Shown here: positions 1,828-13,140 of the stretch, one piece after another
How the letters are laid out: each line of letters opens with the position of its first letter
Position numbering within the stretch: position 1 is the first letter of the stretch
NCBI GenBank assembly: GCA_025463135.1
Contig: JAOAPY010000010.1
Coordinates: forward strand, 1-64,000
From: Acidobacteriota bacterium
Lineage (GTDB): Bacteria; Acidobacteriota; Blastocatellia; Pyrinomonadales; Pyrinomonadaceae
Direction: 5' to 3'
Length of the DNA: 64,000 nt
Program-made: the position numbers and the translations under genes
The notes under the pieces: model-generated
The model's database searches: none
Told to the model about the DNA's origin: nothing
What the model saw: the letters and a program-made list of their open reading frames with translations, nothing else

Positions 1828-4800
1828 ATGATTCGAGTATTTCCCCCTGCAGTGATCTCGCGGCTCACAGGCTTGCGCAATTTTGTCCGCCGATCCCCCG
1901 GCGAAACGTTTGCATCGCAGACTTCAAGGACGGCTGTTAAGCCTACGCTCATTAGGTCATTGCGTCGCCGAGTGGCTTTACTGTTTTGCCTGGTATTGGC
2001 TGCCGCGGTCCTGGTGGAGATTGCACAGAGCCAAATGGTCCATGCTCGTTTGGCCAAGAGCGGTGGTAAGCAGGCTGCCACTCATAACTTTAGTTTTGAG
2101 CCGCAGACAGACAAAACGGCCTCGCACACAGCAGCGCAACAGGCGAGTCAGGAAACGTCCGGACCTCTTGGGGCAATTAACTTTTCAAATACTTATACCG
2201 GTCCGGTGTTTCCGCAAAATATGCCCTTTGGCGCGACCTTTGTGACTGGCGATCCCACCAACATAGGAAAGATTGGACGAGCGGGAGGAAACACCTGGTA
2301 CTTTTCCAACGTTACCCTGCCTTCTCATTGCTCGAATCCAAATACTTTTTGGGGACCGGCAAACAATCTTGTGAGGCTGTCTTTTGTTAGCAACACGTTC
2401 ACGAATACACCCGGCGAAGTTCTGACCTTCCAACCGGGACAATCAAATCTCCCCGGCGGGATCGCGGTATGGACAGGATTCACTTTCAATCCCAGCTCAG
2501 GTCAACAGGTTTTCACGAAATTCACGATGACCGCGAATCTCCACTCGGGGGCGGCTCCTGGTGGAGCGGTCGGCTCTCCCCTCCTCCTGCTGCCTCCCAC
2601 CAATTTCGGACTGCAGTTCAGCCAGGGCGGTATGGTTCAGATAACCCCCAGCATCGATTATCAGATCAACATGCGCTTCGACGCCTCGTTCACCAATGGC
2701 AGCGGCTATTCGCCGGCGCTGGATTTTTACGATGCGAATTCGACAGCTGGCGGCACCTGCTTTGAATCTTTTACGGCGGGATTTTATTACCGCAATTTTC
2801 TTCCCGTAATCAGTGACAACGGCGACAAGTCGACTTTGATTAATACACCCAGCGGTCCGCACGACGTCTATGTTTTTGACTGCGAAACAGCCGCCGCGTC
2901 TTTAGCGCTTTCGGGAAGCTCGAGTAACACTACTCTGTTACCCAATGCAAACATTACCTTCGGAGGTTCAGGTAACAATCGGACTGTGTTGCTCACTCCG
3001 GCCTCGAATCAGTTCGGTACAACTACAGTAACGCTCTCGGTGTTCGATGGGATCGACACAATCAGCGACACCTTCAATTTCGTTGTCGATGCACCGCCAT
3101 CGTGGGTCACCAGCGGCGGCACTGTGGGTGAGCCAACCGGGAACGAATCCGATCCTGTCCAGCGCTCGCTGAATCAAAGTCTTGGCGATCAGGACAGCGG
3201 CCAAACGTTGACGTTCTCGTTGGCCGGCGGAACAGGCAACTGCGGAGCTTCGAGCACACACCCGTTCACCGGTCTCTCTTTCAGTCCTCCCACTACACCA
3301 ACAACCGGCGGCAACACTTCGACGAATCTGCTTTTCAATGTCGGTGCGAATGATGGCGCCAGTTCTCCTTACTGCGTCAGGGTTAACGCTAACGACGGTT
3401 ATACAGACGTTACCCGGGACATGGTGATAAACGTGACGCAGCAGAACTCTGATCCGTTGTGGATTACTTCTGCAGGTACAGTCGACGAACCAACCGGAAG
3501 TGAGGCCAATCCGATTGCCCGCACGATTTCCCTGAGTCTCAACGATGCAGATCCAGGTCAGACGCTGAGTTTTGCATTAGCCGGCGGCACCGGAAACTGT
3601 GGGGCCTCGAGCACACATCCTTTTACCGCGCTGAGTTTTGATCCTGCTGCGGAGCCCACGGTTAGCGGCAATGAAAGTACGCTGCTGCATTTGAGCGTCG
3701 GCGCCAATGATGCCGCCGGCTCACCCTACTGCGTGCGAGTCACGGCGAGTGACGGCACTGCTACAGCTACGAAGGATCTGTCGGTAACGGTGACTCCGCA
3801 CAATTCGAATCCAACCATCAGCGACGTCACTAATCAGTTGACGCAAAGGAACCAGGCGACGGCAGCTATTCCTTTCACGATTGGCGATATCGATGGTGAT
3901 GATCCTGCCACCGCATTGATCATGAGCGGAGGGTCGGGAAACACAACCCTGATTCCCAATGGCAACATCGTTTTTGGCGGCAGTGGGGCAAGTCGATATG
4001 TCACCATTACGCCCGCGAATAACCAGACGGGAACTTCGACGATTACCCTGACCGTAACCGACACACACGGCGCTACGGCGAGCGACACATTCGATTTGAG
4101 AGTTAACGCCCCACCGGTCTTTGACACCAACGCCGGGTTGGCCTTGAACCAGGGCGCGACGGCTACGATTACCAACTCCATGCTGAACGTGACCGATGCC
4201 GATAACACCGCGGCGCAATTGAAGTACACGGTCGCCCCGGGGGGTAACGGTGGGCCGTCGCATGAGGGCACTCTTAAACTCAACAACGTTGCTTTGACTT
4301 CCGGCAGTTTCTTTACGCAGGACGACGTGAACAACAATCGGGTGACCTATACGAACAATGGCAGCAACCAGACTTCGGACACCTTTCAGTTCAACATCAC
4401 TGACGGAGATGGAGCGACGCTGCCGAATGATGGAGTGCATCTAACTTTCACCTTCGGCATCACCATTACGCTGATTAATCACGCGCCCGTTGCAGTTGAC
4501 GGCAACGGCTCGACCGGCATTGGGGCGCCGTTCAACGGAACCTTTGCCGCGACCGATCCTGACACGTTCGCGCAAACCTTAATGCGACGAATCGTGACGA
4601 ACGGCAGCAAAGGCACGGCAGTGCTAAACGACGCGACCACGGGAGCGTTCACCTACACACCGAATCCACAGCAGACCGGTCAGGACACAATCGTCTTCCA
4701 GGTCAACGACGGTTCGTTGGATTCAGTCAACCCGGGCACCTTCACCATTGACATCCAAAATGCGGCGCCCACGGCACAGAATGCGTCGGGCAATGCAACC

Positions 4801-7800
4801 GAGGGAGTTGCGCTCAACGGCATACTCACAGGGTCAGATCCGGATCAGCCCCCACAACCCTTTACGTTTGCGATTGCCGGCAATCCGAGCAAGGGCAATG
4901 TAAACATCACCAATCCTTCGACGGGCGCTTTCACTTACACACCGAACGCGAATGCTTTCGGAGCGGACTCGTTTACTTTCACGGTAAGCGATGGGCTGCT
5001 GACTTCCGCGCCGGGAACATTCTCGATAACCATCAAGCCTAATCTTGATGCGGGTGACGTCTTTGTCACCAACACCAGTACAACTGGTCCGCAGGCGGGC
5101 GTGGTTGTTCAGATTGATCCAAACAACGGCTCGCAGTTCGTTGTCAGTAGTGGAGGAAGTCTGACAAATCCGAGCGCGATCATTATTGAGCACGATGGGA
5201 AACTGGTGGTTCTCGACCGCAATAACAATGTCTTCAAACTGGTTCGCGTAGATCCGTCGAGCGGAGCGCAAAGCGTTATCCCCAACGGGCCGGTCTTTCA
5301 AAACCCGGTTGGTCTGGGTATTGGGCCGGGCGCCGATCTCTTTGTCGCCGATCCTTTTGCCGGCAGTGTTTTTGAAGTCAATCCAACCACCGGGGCGCTG
5401 GTCCATACCTTCTCCGGCGGCAATCTCGGTGGGCCCGTAGGCATTGCGTTTGACGCGGACGGCAACCTGCTGGTTTCCGATGCCGCGGGCCTCTTTGGAG
5501 GATCAAGCAAGATCGTTCGTATCAACACGGCAACTGATGCCCAGACAGTAGTCACTTCGGGTGGCGGTCTGTTATTGCCGGCGGACATCGCTCTCGACAG
5601 CAATGGCGACATTATCGTCTCCGACGCGCCGAACCTGTTTGGGCCAGGGACTGGTAGTTTGCTTCGAGTGAATGCAATTTCCGGAGTTCAAACAGTAATT
5701 ACCGGCGCTGGACTTGGGAAGCCTTCGGGCGTTGCGGTTGAGTACAGCAATAACAATTCCTTTACTCCAGACAACGGCGCCGCCAGCGTTTTGATGACCA
5801 CTCCAGCGGGCACGACCACTACGGCGGCCAGTGGAGAGTTTCTGTCGCAGCCTTATGGAATCGCGATGATTCAAAATGCCGCGCCAATAGCCAGCGATTC
5901 CTCTGTCAATACCGGGATCGCGCCAATCGTGATCACTCCTGTTGCGCGTGACGTCGAGACTCCTTCGGCTAATCTCAAGTTTACCGCAGCGGCGGCGCTT
6001 CACGGCCAGGTCTCTCCGACGTCGCCGTGTGCGGTGTTCCCCTGCGCGACAATAACTTACACACCTGATCCGAATTACTCTGGGAGTGACAGCTTTACTT
6101 TTACGGCAGTTGACGAAGGCTACGGGTTTGCGCCGCCGCGGACCAGTAACACAGCCACGGTTTCGATCAATGTCCAAGCGGCCAGTATCAGCGGCCACTT
6201 GAATTACCTCGATAGTACGACTGGGGCCAGGAATGTGACCCTGACACTGACCGGTTTGGGCGGCTTTACCACTCGAATTACCACCACCGATACAAACGGC
6301 GACTATACATTTGCTGACGTGCCGACAGGCAATAACTATACGGTCACGCCTTCGCGGGTGGCTGCGGCGCACGATCCCAGCATCACGGCTTTTGACGCTT
6401 CGAAGGCAGCGCGTTTTGAAGTGAACCCGGGCGCTTTCCCTCTCACTGCAAATCAACAAACAGCCGGCGACTCAAGTAATAACGGTTCAGTCACAGCGTT
6501 TGATGCTTCGCAGATCGCTCGGTATGAATTGACGATACCTTCGGCGGGCATTGCCGGCAGCTGGAAGTTCAAGCCCGCGAATTTGAGCATTAACAATCTC
6601 AGCGCTACTCAGACTGGCCAGAACCTGACCGCGATTTTGGTGGGTGACATCACCGGTAACTGGATACCATCGGGGCCGAGCGAGCTTGCCACTTCGGCGC
6701 CGACGGCGACCATCATCGTCTCGCTGCCCATCAAGCAGGATCCACCCGGTGGGCCGAGCACCATTCCCATCACGGTGGGTGATACGACGGGACAGGGCAT
6801 TGGCGCTTATGCCTTCGACATCAGTTTTGACCCGACTGTGCTGCAGCCACAAGCTACGCCGTATGACTCGACCGGCACGCTCAGCAGCGGCTGGTTGATT
6901 ACGCCGAATACATCAACGTCCGGTCATTTGATATTGAATGCTTTCAACACCAGCGATATGACCGGACAGGGAGTGTTGCTGAACCTGAAGTTCAACGTAA
7001 TCGGCGCCCCAGCATCGACATCACCATTGACCTGGGTAAACTTCACCTTCAACGAAGGCACACCTGCCGACAGTGACATCAATGGCTCGTTCACGGCGAC
7101 GGGGCCGAGTGCAGCAGTCGCGGGCATCAGCGGCCAGATAGTTGATGCCGCTGGTCAACCGGTAGCCGGCACTACGGTGACGGTAGTCGGCGGCTCGAGC
7201 ACTATCCGAGCGATCACGGACAGCAATGGTTTCTATCGGGTTGAAGGTCTGGAAGCCGGTGGTTTCTACACGGTGACACCATCGAGAGCGAACTATGTGT
7301 TTGCACCGGCGAATCGTTCGTTCTCGCTGGTTGGGAGCAGGACTGATGCCATGTTCACGGGCACAGTGACAGCGCCTGATGGTAATCCTTTGGAGAGTCC
7401 GGAGTTCTTTGTGCGACAGCAGTATCTGGACTTTTTGGGAAGAGAGCCGGAGCAGAGTGGATTGGCTTACTGGGGCGGACAACTGCGCGCCTGCGGTAAC
7501 GATGGAGACTGCATAAAGACGCTGCGCACCAGCATCGCGAGTGCGTTCTACATCGCGCAGGAGTTTCAGGATTCTGGATTGTACATCTATGACGTATACG
7601 AAGGCGCATTGGGCCGGCGGCCGGTTCATGCGGAGTACGCAGTCGATAGAAGGACGGTGGTAGGCGGACCGCATCTGGAAACGAACAAGACGGCGTTTGC
7701 GCGGAGCTTTGTGGAGAGAGCAGAGTTCACTACGCAGTATCCGCTGACGATGAGCGATGAAGTGTTCGTGGATGCTTTGCTGCGGACTGCGCAACAGAGT

Positions 7801-8151
7801 TCCGGGCTGGATCTCAGCCGCTCACGAGCCGCACTGATCGCGCTCTACAACAGCGGCGCGAATCCCAGCGGAAGTACCACCGAAAGCCGCAGTCTGGTGT
7901 TGCGCAGTGTCGCGGAAGACAGCCGGTTCAAGCAGACGCAATACAACGCGGCGTTTGTGTTGATGGAATACTACGGCTACCTGGGACGCAATCCTGATGC
8001 TGCGGGCTATGACTTCTGGCTAAACGTCTTGAATGACGGCGCTGGAAATAACTATCGCGGCATGGTGTGCTCGTTCATCACCTCGGCGGAATACCAGCGG
8101 CGGTTCAGTGTGGTTGTGACGCGCAATAACAGCGAGTGCGGAAGCCAGTAG
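1828..8151 (+). CDS. Giant secreted multidomain surface protein (cadherin-like, NHL-like, dockerin, cohesin, DUF4214)
   Basis: The protein has 2107 residues. A long basic N-terminus leads to a hydrophobic export segment (about 49-66, after RSLRRR). Next come a unique domain (115-325), a tandem run of cadherin/Ig-like beta domains (about 340-1070, recurring DEPTG, GGTGNCGASSTHPFT and NAAPTAQN-type junctions), an NHL/SMP-30-like beta-propeller (about 1075-1348), another cadherin-like domain, a carboxypeptidase-regulatory domain (about 1452-1511), a two-loop dockerin-like segment (about 1515-1572, AFDASKAARFE and AFDASQIARYE), a cohesin-like domain (about 1625-1755), a second CpdD domain (1765-1846) and DUF4214 (about 1853-2100). 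It is probably a cell-surface or secreted adhesin or scaffold. No Shine-Dalgarno is obvious at 1828, so the exact start is uncertain. Confidence 0.85.
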   Translation: MIRVFPPAVISRLTGLRNFVRRSPGETFASQTSRTAVKPTLIRSLRRRVALLFCLVLAAAVLVEIAQSQMVHARLAKSGGKQAATHNFSFEPQTDKTASHTAAQQASQETSGPLGAINFSNTYTGPVFPQNMPFGATFVTGDPTNIGKIGRAGGNTWYFSNVTLPSHCSNPNTFWGPANNLVRLSFVSNTFTNTPGEVLTFQPGQSNLPGGIAVWTGFTFNPSSGQQVFTKFTMTANLHSGAAPGGAVGSPLLLLPPTNFGLQFSQGGMVQITPSIDYQINMRFDASFTNGSGYSPALDFYDANSTAGGTCFESFTAGFYYRNFLPVISDNGDKSTLINTPSGPHDVYVFDCETAAASLALSGSSSNTTLLPNANITFGGSGNNRTVLLTPASNQFGTTTVTLSVFDGIDTISDTFNFVVDAPPSWVTSGGTVGEPTGNESDPVQRSLNQSLGDQDSGQTLTFSLAGGTGNCGASSTHPFTGLSFSPPTTPTTGGNTSTNLLFNVGANDGASSPYCVRVNANDGYTDVTRDMVINVTQQNSDPLWITSAGTVDEPTGSEANPIARTISLSLNDADPGQTLSFALAGGTGNCGASSTHPFTALSFDPAAEPTVSGNESTLLHLSVGANDAAGSPYCVRVTASDGTATATKDLSVTVTPHNSNPTISDVTNQLTQRNQATAAIPFTIGDIDGDDPATALIMSGGSGNTTLIPNGNIVFGGSGASRYVTITPANNQTGTSTITLTVTDTHGATASDTFDLRVNAPPVFDTNAGLALNQGATATITNSMLNVTDADNTAAQLKYTVAPGGNGGPSHEGTLKLNNVALTSGSFFTQDDVNNNRVTYTNNGSNQTSDTFQFNITDGDGATLPNDGVHLTFTFGITITLINHAPVAVDGNGSTGIGAPFNGTFAATDPDTFAQTLMRRIVTNGSKGTAVLNDATTGAFTYTPNPQQTGQDTIVFQVNDGSLDSVNPGTFTIDIQNAAPTAQNASGNATEGVALNGILTGSDPDQPPQPFTFAIAGNPSKGNVNITNPSTGAFTYTPNANAFGADSFTFTVSDGLLTSAPGTFSITIKPNLDAGDVFVTNTSTTGPQAGVVVQIDPNNGSQFVVSSGGSLTNPSAIIIEHDGKLVVLDRNNNVFKLVRVDPSSGAQSVIPNGPVFQNPVGLGIGPGADLFVADPFAGSVFEVNPTTGALVHTFSGGNLGGPVGIAFDADGNLLVSDAAGLFGGSSKIVRINTATDAQTVVTSGGGLLLPADIALDSNGDIIVSDAPNLFGPGTGSLLRVNAISGVQTVITGAGLGKPSGVAVEYSNNNSFTPDNGAASVLMTTPAGTTTTAASGEFLSQPYGIAMIQNAAPIASDSSVNTGIAPIVITPVARDVETPSANLKFTAAAALHGQVSPTSPCAVFPCATITYTPDPNYSGSDSFTFTAVDEGYGFAPPRTSNTATVSINVQAASISGHLNYLDSTTGARNVTLTLTGLGGFTTRITTTDTNGDYTFADVPTGNNYTVTPSRVAAAHDPSITAFDASKAARFEVNPGAFPLTANQQTAGDSSNNGSVTAFDASQIARYELTIPSAGIAGSWKFKPANLSINNLSATQTGQNLTAILVGDITGNWIPSGPSELATSAPTATIIVSLPIKQDPPGGPSTIPITVGDTTGQGIGAYAFDISFDPTVLQPQATPYDSTGTLSSGWLITPNTSTSGHLILNAFNTSDMTGQGVLLNLKFNVIGAPASTSPLTWVNFTFNEGTPADSDINGSFTATGPSAAVAGISGQIVDAAGQPVAGTTVTVVGGSSTIRAITDSNGFYRVEGLEAGGFYTVTPSRANYVFAPANRSFSLVGSRTDAMFTGTVTAPDGNPLESPEFFVRQQYLDFLGREPEQSGLAYWGGQLRACGNDGDCIKTLRTSIASAFYIAQEFQDSGLYIYDVYEGALGRRPVHAEYAVDRRTVVGGPHLETNKTAFARSFVERAEFTTQYPLTMSDEVFVDALLRTAQQSSGLDLSRSRAALIALYNSGANPSGSTTESRSLVLRSVAEDSRFKQTQYNAAFVLMEYYGYLGRNPDAAGYDFWLNVLNDGAGNNYRGMVCSFITSAEYQRRFSVVVTRNNSECGSQ

Positions 8152-8557: not shown

Positions 8558-9064
8558 ATGACACACACTCCCACCACACGTCGAGATGGACTAATCGTCC
8601 GCGAGTTGGAAGACGAGACGCTCGTCTACGATCTTCAGCGCGATGAGGTGCACTGCCTGAATCGAACCGCCGCGCTAGTTTGGAAGCACTGCGACGGACG
8701 GTTGACTGTTGCAGAGATTACGAAGCGCGTCGAGGACGAGCTGCAGGTAACACTTGATGAGCAAGTTGTCTGGTTGGCGTTAGCTCAACTGCGGGGGAAA
8801 CGGCTGCTGGCGGAACGGATTCCTCGCGCCCGATCAGCGCCACGCATATCCAGGCGCGAGATGGCGCACAGACTTGCTCAAGCCATGGTCATAGCATTGC
8901 CGCTCATCACGACTATCGTTGCACCTACACCCTCGTACGCGGGGTCGCTGAACTGCTCAACCTGCGGCATAGGACCAACGGCCGAATGTTGCATGACCGG
9001 ATGCCCCTGCCAAGTCCCGGCCCCCTGTTGTAGCGGCATTTGCTCTTCTGGTTCCTGTACATAG
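8558..9064 (+). CDS. PqqD-domain protein with internal signal-like segment and ten-cysteine tail
   Basis: The protein has 168 residues. Residues 10-85 look like a PqqD/RRE winged-helix domain (YDLQRDEVHCLNRTAALVW, then the DGRLTVAEI turn). Residues 96-128 resemble a Tat- or Sec-type signal in the wrong place: SRREMAHRLAQ, a hydrophobic run and then PSYAG, a plausible signal-peptidase site. Residues 129-168 hold ten cysteines (133, 136, 144, 145, 149, 151, 157, 158, 162, 167), ending CCSGICSSGSC, a spacing reminiscent of knottins. PqqD domains bind leader peptides for radical SAM or other RiPP enzymes; here the domain may be the leader-like part of a secreted cysteine-rich peptide. No maturase is adjacent. 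It stands alone and the Shine-Dalgarno is weak. Confidence 0.8.
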   Translation: MTHTPTTRRDGLIVRELEDETLVYDLQRDEVHCLNRTAALVWKHCDGRLTVAEITKRVEDELQVTLDEQVVWLALAQLRGKRLLAERIPRARSAPRISRREMAHRLAQAMVIALPLITTIVAPTPSYAGSLNCSTCGIGPTAECCMTGCPCQVPAPCCSGICSSGSCT

Positions 9065-10410: not shown

Positions 10411-13140
10411 ATGACAGATCACTTACCTACACTTGCCATTAGGCATGAGCAGATGTCTCTGCCCAATCAACCTTTCTCCCTTTGGCTGCGAGGTCAAAGC
10501 ACGCTGTTTGTTGGTCAGATAGCTGCAATCCTAGCCTTTGTTTACTCGCTTGCGTCCTTAATTTATTACGTCTCCAATGCGACGGAAGAAAGCCGATCCT
10601 TCTTCGATCCCTTCCACATAAGGCTGTTTGTAGACTATGCGCACATAGGGTTCATCGCGATCATTATTCTCGCTTTGATTCAGGTTCTCGATGACAACGA
10701 TCGTGGCTCTTACCACGTAAAACTCGTCTATGAGCGAGTCTTCAACGACACTTTAGATAACGAAAAACACAAGCAGCTTCTGAAAGGAAGCAAAGAGCAA
10801 TTGCAACGTTTTAAGCGTCGTTTTCTGTGGTTCTGGATTGTCATGCTCCTTTTGTACGTCACTTTTGCATGCCATCACAGCTATCAACTTGCAAGTTCTC
10901 ACCTGCTGCACAGATCAGCTACCGTCGTTGATGGCTCCGCCACGACTGGACATAGGGACCTGTCACCGGAGCATTCCCGTTCGGGCGAGAACAACGAACC
11001 ACCACCTCCATCCCCAAGCGATACGGAAAAGCTGAAGGTGTTTGAGGTGTTCGAGACGATGGGTGTTCCGTTTCTTCTCTTCGCTCTAAACAATATTAGC
11101 CTGCTATGTGTCTTCTGGTGTTTCCTCATCATGTACTTGCCGCCGGAAGATCGGGAAGCAAAGGACCCAAAGTTCCGCCGTTATTCCGGTTTGGTAATGG
11201 TCGGCTTTACGCTGTTGTTCCCGCTGTTTGTTTATATTAACCGGCAGAACTTCACCCCTGTCAGTCGCGACGCTTATATTGCGGTTTTTGATGCATTGAG
11301 TGGGACGCTAAATGCAATCGTGTTGGCTTTGTTGATTGCCAGACTAGACAGCAAGCTCATCGGGCTACGATCCTGGCTCATATGCGTGCTGTATTCTTAT
11401 GCCGCGGTCCAGCCTTTGTTTGTCATGTTCGATCAGCGCCGGCCCGTTGCGGACGCGATAACAACGGCGGTCCTAGTTTTCGTTTTCGCCTCTAAGATTT
11501 ACTTCTTCCTAATCATCATCTATGCCCTACAAACAGGAAGAATGCTTAATTATCTGAGTTGTTTTCCGGTGCTTCGGAAACAAGTCAATGAAAGCAAATT
11601 CCTGGGTTCCCCAGCTGCGCCTGAACACCAGAGCAAGAAATCTGACAATAAGATCATGGATTATCTTGACTCGCGGAGCGACCGCCTATACGCGTGGGCC
11701 GCGGGCGATACCAAGCTGCGCCTTGAGGAATTCCGGGAGTCTTTGTCGGCATGGATGAGGAGTCCACGCCCACGAGAAGTAAGTTGGCTACTAGGGATAG
11801 TTGCCACCAGCACCTTCTTTATTTTTTTGATCGGGTATGCGCTGACTTTGGGGACCGCAACCGAGCTCACCAGTTACCTGACGGACAGCATCGCGCAAGG
11901 AATTAGTATAGGCGTTGACATCGCTCATCTGATCGCAGTTGGCGGAATCATTGCCGCACTGTTTCTGCTTCGGAAAGACAATGGTTGTCATGTCGATCGC
12001 GTCATGGGAATAGCGGAGAAAGTCTTTTGCGTGCGCCGCGACTCATGCCCCGGAATGATTGAGACGCTCGACAAGTCCAGGTACTCCCCGGATAAAGCGG
12101 AGGAACAATTACAAAAGTTCAAAGAGTATTTTCTATGGTTCTGGCTCGTGCTCTTTGTTCTCTACGTCGTCTCGCTCAGCAAGCACCTGAGCATGAATGC
12201 CGACTCCCAAGACCTGCACTATATTGCAGCTAGTCGGACGAGTTTCGAAATATTGATTTATCCCTTTCTTCAGTTCGCGTTGAGTACCATAAATTCGCTG
12301 TTCGTGTTTTGGTGTTTTGTAGTTTTACAATCGCCGGCTTACGAGCCACGGTCGGGAGTGAGACAGAGATTACTCATCAACTATTCTGGTTTCGTGGTCG
12401 TCCTCCTCATCGCTGCTTTCCCACTGTTGCTATTCTTTGTTGCCGGTAGCACGTTTACCGAAGGGAAATTGCTCGCTTATGCCACCGTTTTTGAAGGTCT
12501 CACTGGTACGCTGAGCGGAGTCGTGTTAGCGCTATTAATCGCGAGGCTGGATAGTAAGTTCATCAGCCTCTCATCGTCGCTAATATGCATACTTTTTGCC
12601 TATGCTGGGATACAAGCTCTATCCGTGGTCTTCAATCTGCCCGAACCCGTGTTCAAGACAATGGCAACATTCGTCTTGATTGCGGCGCTCGGCCTCAAGA
12701 TCTGTTTCTTCTTAATAATTGCCCACACATTGCAAAGTGGAAGGATGCTCAACTACCTGGTCTGCTTTCCGTTTCTTCGAGAGCGGGTCGACTCGATTTT
12801 TGAGAACCAATTTGAGATCAGGACCTCCAGATTGGGGGCCAACGCATTCACTTTCTCGATCTTCAAGAAGAATCAATTGCATTATTCAACGGAAAGCACG
12901 TTCGAAAATAAGCGAGAGTGTGATGTAGCGGTTCACGACCTCCGCGAGGGAATGAAAAAGGGCGCGGCATACGTGCGGCCTCCGAACGAATCAGGAACAT
13001 ATTGGGTCGAGGTGAAAGTTAAAACTTCCAAAGAGGATCTCGTCTTCGAGAGCGCTCCCCTTAGATCGGAAGACGACGCGAGTCGACTAATCGAGGAATC
13101 TATCGACAAGATTCCTTATTGCAAGTACAACCGTGCATAA
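10411..13140 (+). CDS. Large polytopic membrane protein of two tandem homologous halves, unknown function
   Basis: The protein has 909 residues. Two halves of about 400 residues share the same pattern: amphipathic QLQRFKRRFLWFW / QLQKFKEYFLWFW before a membrane helix, FWCFLIM / FWCFVVL, then GTLNAIVLALLIARLDSK (near 299) / GTLSGVVLALLIARLDSK (near 699), and finally LQTGRMLNYL / LQSGRMLNYL. Each half appears to have six or so membrane helices. A cytosolic C-terminal domain (about 800-909) shows two short beta-beta-alpha-like units that might be DUF1508/YegP-related, which is weak. No transporter or enzyme signature is recognised. By eye the base composition is more AT-rich than in flanking genes, and an IS30 remnant follows, which hints at acquired DNA. 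Confidence 0.8.
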   Translation: MTDHLPTLAIRHEQMSLPNQPFSLWLRGQSTLFVGQIAAILAFVYSLASLIYYVSNATEESRSFFDPFHIRLFVDYAHIGFIAIIILALIQVLDDNDRGSYHVKLVYERVFNDTLDNEKHKQLLKGSKEQLQRFKRRFLWFWIVMLLLYVTFACHHSYQLASSHLLHRSATVVDGSATTGHRDLSPEHSRSGENNEPPPPSPSDTEKLKVFEVFETMGVPFLLFALNNISLLCVFWCFLIMYLPPEDREAKDPKFRRYSGLVMVGFTLLFPLFVYINRQNFTPVSRDAYIAVFDALSGTLNAIVLALLIARLDSKLIGLRSWLICVLYSYAAVQPLFVMFDQRRPVADAITTAVLVFVFASKIYFFLIIIYALQTGRMLNYLSCFPVLRKQVNESKFLGSPAAPEHQSKKSDNKIMDYLDSRSDRLYAWAAGDTKLRLEEFRESLSAWMRSPRPREVSWLLGIVATSTFFIFLIGYALTLGTATELTSYLTDSIAQGISIGVDIAHLIAVGGIIAALFLLRKDNGCHVDRVMGIAEKVFCVRRDSCPGMIETLDKSRYSPDKAEEQLQKFKEYFLWFWLVLFVLYVVSLSKHLSMNADSQDLHYIAASRTSFEILIYPFLQFALSTINSLFVFWCFVVLQSPAYEPRSGVRQRLLINYSGFVVVLLIAAFPLLLFFVAGSTFTEGKLLAYATVFEGLTGTLSGVVLALLIARLDSKFISLSSSLICILFAYAGIQALSVVFNLPEPVFKTMATFVLIAALGLKICFFLIIAHTLQSGRMLNYLVCFPFLRERVDSIFENQFEIRTSRLGANAFTFSIFKKNQLHYSTESTFENKRECDVAVHDLREGMKKGAAYVRPPNESGTYWVEVKVKTSKEDLVFESAPLRSEDDASRLIEESIDKIPYCKYNRA

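Follow-up and report, generated by a model that had tools for sequence, protein, structure and literature searches.

A PqqD-type recognition domain fused to a cysteine-rich, predicted secreted tail in Acidobacteriota: a candidate variant of kinase-associated phosphopeptide systems

Described relatives and the protein under study

Linear polyphosphorylated peptides (LPPs) of Bacillota are made by a recognition element (RRE) of the kind that serves ribosomally synthesised and post-translationally modified peptides (RiPPs), together with an HprK-like kinase and a nucleoside triphosphate (NTP) transferase (PMC13381572). In the core AQSNWK..., Ser3, just past the cleavage site, receives as many as four phosphates from the kinase, LppK; the core termini are hypervariable and the loci lie within capsular polysaccharide clusters (PMC13381572). 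An HprK-like kinase and a nucleotidyltransferase, with delivery by a PqqD-like B1 protein, also modify the phosphorylated lasso peptides, among them paeninodin (PadeK/ThcoK) and pseudomycoidin, which PsmK and PsmN phosphorylate and hexosylate, PsmN attaching hexoses to phosphoserine (PMC9266682). A third gene set, HPr-rel-A (TIGR04352/TIGR04353), occurs in Sphingomonas and on Vibrio plasmids; no paper on "HPr-rel-A" or "HprK-related kinase" was found in the open-access literature. The present analysis concerns a stretch of 64,000 nucleotides from an Acidobacteriota bacterium (contig JAOAPY010000010.1; hereafter the window) and, within it, the gene at 8,558–9,064 on the forward strand. Its product, P0001 (168 residues; ATG start; MTHTP...SSGSCT; supported by paralogues and alignment), joins a PqqD/RRE domain, an internal signal and a tail with ten cysteines. 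P0001 is best read as an RRE-bearing, LPP/HPr-rel-A-like substrate, that is, a variant of the RRE/HprK/NTP-transferase phosphopeptide RiPPs whose RRE and disulfide-rich, exported core form a single chain.

The P0001 family shares with the LPPs the RRE, the HprK-like kinase and the NTP transferase, a conserved N-terminus followed by a highly variable C-terminus, a predicted signal-peptidase-type cleavage, a Ser at core position 3 (AQS...), modified in the LPPs and a candidate for modification here, and loci in polysaccharide clusters (PMC13381572). In contrast to the LPPs, its RRE is fused to the substrate, its signal is of a Tat-like SRR type and its cores are cysteine-rich. The discrete RRE and the leader motif YxxPxVLxHQxIxFETxxS, which define the LPPs, are absent from the family. 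Neither the SpI/archaeal-type signal peptidase nor the MsbA-like transporter of the LPPs recurs among the clusters of neighbouring genes, where no targeted search for them was made.

The HPr-rel-A loci likewise encode an HprK-related kinase A, a PqqD protein and a nucleotidyltransferase, and alongside them a protein that resembles a substrate in having an SRR signal and an AxA site. On the plasmids of Sphingomonas parapaucimobilis and Vibrio alfacsensis, PqqD and an SRR hypothetical protein precede the kinase A and nucleotidyltransferase genes. The PqqD protein is annotated in Sphingomonas and corresponds in Vibrio to an unannotated, PqqD-looking open reading frame (ORF) of 84 residues, while the SRR proteins carry a short N-terminal leader and a signal ending in ALA-QT or AWA-GG. 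The SRR substrate-like proteins and the PqqD-like ORF of these loci had gone unrecognised (L147:5026-5511, L148:4878-5690 and L148:5715-5969). There, PqqD is a discrete protein; here, the P0001 domain scores 21.6 bits against the TIGR04353 PqqD model (equivalog cut-off 35) and the associated kinase 60.3 bits against HprK_rel_A (TIGR04352; cut-off 200), which makes both homologues but not members. Judged by gene content, the proteobacterial loci look like the unfused version of the system, and the acidobacterial protein like both proteins fused, with the RRE replacing the leader. As the family lacks the discrete RRE, the YxxP leader motif and equivalog scores, it is set apart from both the LPP and HPr-rel-A families.

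The closest RRE fold to that of P0001 is a lasso B1 protein, but neither a macrolactam cyclase nor a B2 protease accompanies the family, and the lasso Ser is modified at the C-terminus of the core. In borosins, the substrate is fused to its own methyltransferase. P0001 resembles them in that a substrate is covalently tied to part of its maturation apparatus, the fused part here being the recognition domain and not the catalyst. The RREs known so far, to our knowledge, either stand alone as adaptors or belong to enzymes. The open-access literature yielded no relevant work on fusions of an RRE with a precursor, subscription journals lying outside the search.

Recognition domain, internal signal and cysteine tail

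The PqqD/RRE domain occupies residues ~8–84 (8,579–8,809, forward strand) and matches PF05402 with an E-value of 1.4e-7 (32.2 bits, cut-off 23.4). All of the scanned family members (82/82) matched PqqD at E≤0.01. The AlphaFold2 (AF2) model, built from an input with 82 natural relatives, comprises three strands followed by three helices, with a pLDDT of at least 93 over residues 1–80. The best Foldseek matches in the PDB were the lasso-peptide RRE TbiB1 in its leader complex (TM 0.75–0.77 by target length) and PqqD 5sxy (TM 0.60). By sequence and model, the N-terminal domain is a genuine RRE fold. Weak matches to the SCM and GeoRSP PqqD models were also observed. The initial annotation, made from the letters of the window alone, had described 8,558–9,064 as a PqqD/RRE-like domain, followed by SRRE and a hydrophobic run ending in PSYAG, and then ten cysteines within 40 residues. 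The sequence and PF05402 bear this layout out, and the homology check that it proposed for the domain gave agreement among PF05402, AF2 and Foldseek, with no failure to match.

The internal Tat-like signal spans residues 98–128 (8,849–8,941, forward strand) and consists of SRREMAH, a hydrophobic run and P123-TPSYA128, with a predicted cut after A128. In the 82-sequence alignment, R99, R100 and P123 were invariant, as were L34, G47 and L83 of the PqqD part. Across 98 sequences, the signal consensus was S/T/N-R-R-x-φ-φ-K/R (K/R present in 92/98) and the A-x-A site was conserved, with its A at five residues past the conserved proline. The family therefore displays the features of twin-arginine translocation (Tat) substrates, namely (S/T)RRx-φ-φ-(K/R), a hydrophobic stretch and AxA, and TatC was found in each of the 14 genomes tested (14/14). 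These motifs point to export through the internal SRR signal, probably by the Tat route. The conserved A-x-A site also lends support to the cleavage at the internal signal that had been proposed, as a predicted event.

The predicted released peptide (residues 129–168; 8,942–9,061, forward strand) has 40 residues, with its ten cysteines at positions 133, 136, 144, 145, 149, 151, 157, 158, 162 and 167. The cysteine count was even in all 96 of the usable, distinct family tails (range 2–22), compared with 160/258 (62%) of the other proteins from the same loci with at least four cysteines and 72/96 of the family's own N-terminal parts. Because the tail counts are even and vary only by steps of two, every cysteine would have a partner. 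The tail cysteines are thus almost certainly paired, as far as parity can tell, and the simplest form of pairing would be disulfides formed after export. Tail length ranges from ~25 to 143 residues, with Lys, Trp and His nearly absent; such neutral, Lys-poor tails differ from classical cationic antimicrobials.

Knottin-type spacing fitted 19 tails, against 1.5 expected on shuffling (maximum 6 in 500). The six-cysteine tail of the paralogue at L059 (CLPSGSACTASAQCCSGICNAGTC) gave a model of a small fold, which could be overlaid on omega-atracotoxin and on U3-scytotoxin at 0.4–0.7 Å, with Foldseek probabilities of 0.94–0.96 against 5fzv and 1hvw (E-value ~1–2, given the short match). Paralogue tails share the C-x6-C-x5/6-CC-x3-C-x4-C spacing and the modelled fold with inhibitor cystine knot peptides (omega-atracotoxin, U3-scytotoxin and the O-conotoxins); unlike those peptides, the family is bacterial and many of its tails, including that of the window, have other cysteine patterns, so that the likeness is one of fold only. 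A knottin fold is well supported by spacing and modelling for the tails of close paralogues, and some family tails are apparently true cystine knots. The tail of P0001 itself was modelled at a pLDDT of ~52–81, its top Foldseek matches contained no knottin and it had no Pfam match. The earlier term "knottin-like" suits the close paralogues; for the window's own tail it is a tentative label, with a weak phmmer match of residues 141–167 to the spider peptide 5fzw (E=0.17).

Family distribution, partner enzymes and the candidate modification site

About 100 family members were collected. The window genome holds two further copies (L002/L059 and L003/L060), P0001 is encoded identically in G025, a genome of the same taxonomic family, and a profile search matched the family in 33 of 60 relatives. 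Given the two paralogues in the same genome, these matched relatives and the invariant residues, the architecture is not a product of chance. In a sample of 297 genomes drawn evenly across the phylum Acidobacteriota, the family was present in 25. Other phyla, sampled non-systematically, yielded relatives in metagenome-assembled genomes labelled Armatimonadetes, Actinomycetota, Rokuibacteriota and Anaerolineae, and, in a named species, on the megaplasmid of Gemmatirosa kalamazoonensis. Relatives from a single lineage with one operon copy each had a mean identity of 61% in the PqqD part, 71% in the signal and 28% in the tail with shared cysteines excluded. This is the variable tail beside a conserved PqqD part that the initial annotation had asked about. 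Neither outcome that it had named as refuting, a missing PqqD/RRE match or homologues that lack the tail and show no length conservation, came about. A copy in G025 (L005:7956-8285/L037) ends just past the PqqD domain and adjoins an intact-looking nucleotidyltransferase; it is probably a decaying member. Another genome, G027, gave 44 matches to the family (loci L039–L058 and L111 among them), dispersed and with no linked enzymes, and no shared upstream DNA motif was seen among these copies. The co-occurrence of the family with one particular kinase, set out below, suggests a large group of secreted bacterial peptides, not described before, that probably carry phosphate tags.

Clustering of ~860 genes around the family loci revealed two recurring neighbour families outside G027, an HprK-like kinase and NTP_transf_5 (PF14907), and many loci show the order kinase, PqqD-tail gene, NTP_transf_5. 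Some of these operons lie inside polysaccharide gene clusters, and compact ones, such as that at L059, have intergenic gaps of ~100 bases. His113, the Walker lysine 134 and Asp151 were invariant among 15 aligned kinases. Over the same 297 genomes, the kinase profile was positive in 27, which covered all 25 family-positive genomes (Fisher 2e-34, relatedness ignored). Ten taxonomic families are represented among the positives, and in some of the genomes the genes are unlinked. In a chosen genome set, the co-occurrence was 13/13 against 0/7. The proposed check on co-occurring maturases thus returned a kinase candidate in every family-positive genome of this sample. A link to Ser/Thr kinases and extracytoplasmic function (ECF) sigma factors was looked for, with no clear enrichment (5/30 against 24/208), and no separate short precursor recurs in the operons or among the neighbour genes. 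G027 has one kinase beside one nucleotidyltransferase, near a TsaB-like gene (C31:64306-65720), among housekeeping genes and with no adjoining PqqD-tail gene; from this gene content, the one pair appears to serve all 44 members. The window genome has a single kinase, on contig C24, with the window copy on C2.

Two further kinds of gene adjoin the operons. Peptidases of the C25/PorU type, which have the type IX sortase as a relative and are sometimes placed 3' of the transferase, were seen at L059:3540-6602, L060:3-6521, L061, L064, L071, L072, L080 and L120, and are possible processing or surface-attachment enzymes. In Gemmatirosa kalamazoonensis, a MauE/thioredoxin-like fusion (L146:6590-7513) adjoins the kinase and PqqD-tail pair and is a candidate disulfide-forming factor.

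The 98 sequences were anchored on the conserved P...A. Ser or Thr occupied position +2 past the predicted signal-peptidase site in 86/98 (88%), and position +2 or +3 in 95/98, compared with 10–22% at other early tail positions. In P0001, this residue is Ser130 (8,945–8,947, forward strand), a candidate phosphorylation site with a precedent in LppA S3 (PMC13381572). Many family tails begin with A-Q-S, and beyond the paired cysteines and the +2 Ser/Thr no residue is conserved. The +2 conservation matches in position the Ser3 of the LPP core that LppK targets (PMC13381572). The initial remark that no function was described proved too pessimistic, since in LPPs this enzyme set has been shown to phosphorylate a Ser next to the point where the leader is cut off (PMC13381572). 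By analogy with pseudomycoidin, PsmN shows a role that the transferase partner may have.

Proposed mechanism and competing explanations

Taken together, the domain fold, architecture, conservation, cysteine parity, conserved Ser/Thr, kinase co-occurrence and operon structure, all from sequence and models, point to P0001 as a self-adaptored precursor that is tagged, exported, cleaved and disulfide-folded, a proposal that we hold to be reasonably probable. The PqqD/RRE domain would be covalently part of the substrate and not a separate leader-binding adaptor, and it would recruit the cytoplasmic HprK-like kinase and NTP_transf_5, in cis or to neighbouring chains; for the window copy, these enzymes would be encoded elsewhere in the genome. 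The Ser/Thr just past the signal (Ser130 here) would gain a phosphate and perhaps a further group, after which the protein would be exported via the internal SRR signal, probably by Tat, and cut after A-x-A. The freed peptide would then fold with all cysteines in disulfides, and a single kinase/transferase pair would serve many paralogous cores. The initial annotation envisaged a self-contained substrate that brings its recognition domain along and is matured by enzymes encoded elsewhere, which agrees with the RRE fold, the variable tails and the co-occurring kinase, the maturation being a predicted one. The most likely role would be that of a cell-surface or exopolysaccharide-linked peptide, or of a peptide in competition between organisms. 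Covalent fusion of RRE and substrate would make a leader motif dispensable and would explain how one enzyme pair serves many unrelated cores. A tentative extension, which we place slightly below an even chance, is a distinct RiPP class with a modular repertoire, in which each precursor carries its RRE in cis and a single kinase/NTP-transferase pair serves dozens of unrelated cystine-rich cores, tagged with phosphate or phosphosugar in the cytoplasm and exported by Tat. Many disulfide-rich, genetically encoded peptides from bacteria of poorly cultured soil phyla would come with the family, which also connects the HPr-rel-A gene sets, so far unexplained, with the recently described chemistry of the LPPs; both are testable by mass spectrometry.

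Several observations weigh against this proposal. The Pfam TAT_signal profile matched only 1/82 members at E≤0.01, which speaks against Tat export. The +2 residue is Thr in 28/98 tails, whereas LppK rejects Thr at S3 (PMC13381572), and the conserved Ser/Thr past the signal-peptidase site could have another cause. Cysteine-free, Thr/Pro-rich repetitive tails occur at L008:5757-6428, L141:2593-3420 and L142:7109-7801; L141 and L142 nonetheless have a kinase nearby, while the genome of L008 yielded no kinase and its family member yet retains the Ser. Two genomes positive for the kinase profile, G131 and G252, have a divergent kinase and no family member, and the window copy itself has no adjoining kinase or nucleotidyltransferase.

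Among the alternatives, the strongest is an exported disulfide peptide with an unmodified tail, in which the PqqD part is a docking or targeting handle and the kinase acts on that part or on an exopolysaccharide sugar or lipid. The frequent location of the operons in polysaccharide gene clusters, the members with no linked kinase and the sparse conservation of the tail would all fit, but the same enzyme pair modifies the peptide itself in LPPs and phospho-lassos, and the Ser/Thr is conserved at the matching position; we regard this alternative as unlikely. A membrane-anchored adaptor or regulator, whose PqqD domain handles other cytoplasmic substrates and whose tail, left uncleaved, serves outside the cell as a sensor or anchor, is less probable still. 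PqqD proteins usually act as adaptors, and the signal could remain as a transmembrane helix; the conserved A-x-A site, the presence in a single genome of as many as 44 copies whose tails are unrelated, the compact operons and the lack of any other recurring precursor nearby argue otherwise. Maturation by radical SAM or oxidative enzymes, which the initial annotation favoured, is highly improbable and was dropped: PqqD/RRE domains do work with radical SAM systems, and the SCM and GeoRSP matches lean that way, but gene context largely refutes it, as no radical SAM family recurs in the ~860 neighbours and the kinase co-occurrence already accounts for the partner.

Elsewhere in the window, 10,411–13,137 encodes a 909-residue membrane protein with an apparent internal duplication and zero Pfam or NCBIfam matches. 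Upstream of the P0001 gene lie large secreted proteins (1–1,395 and 1,828–8,148) with DUF4214 and carboxypeptidase-regulatory-like domains, as well as cohesin-like ones. A G009 copy is likewise located between two related large proteins, L069:1785-6704 and L069:8468-13714 (DUF4214, carboxypeptidase-regulatory-like).
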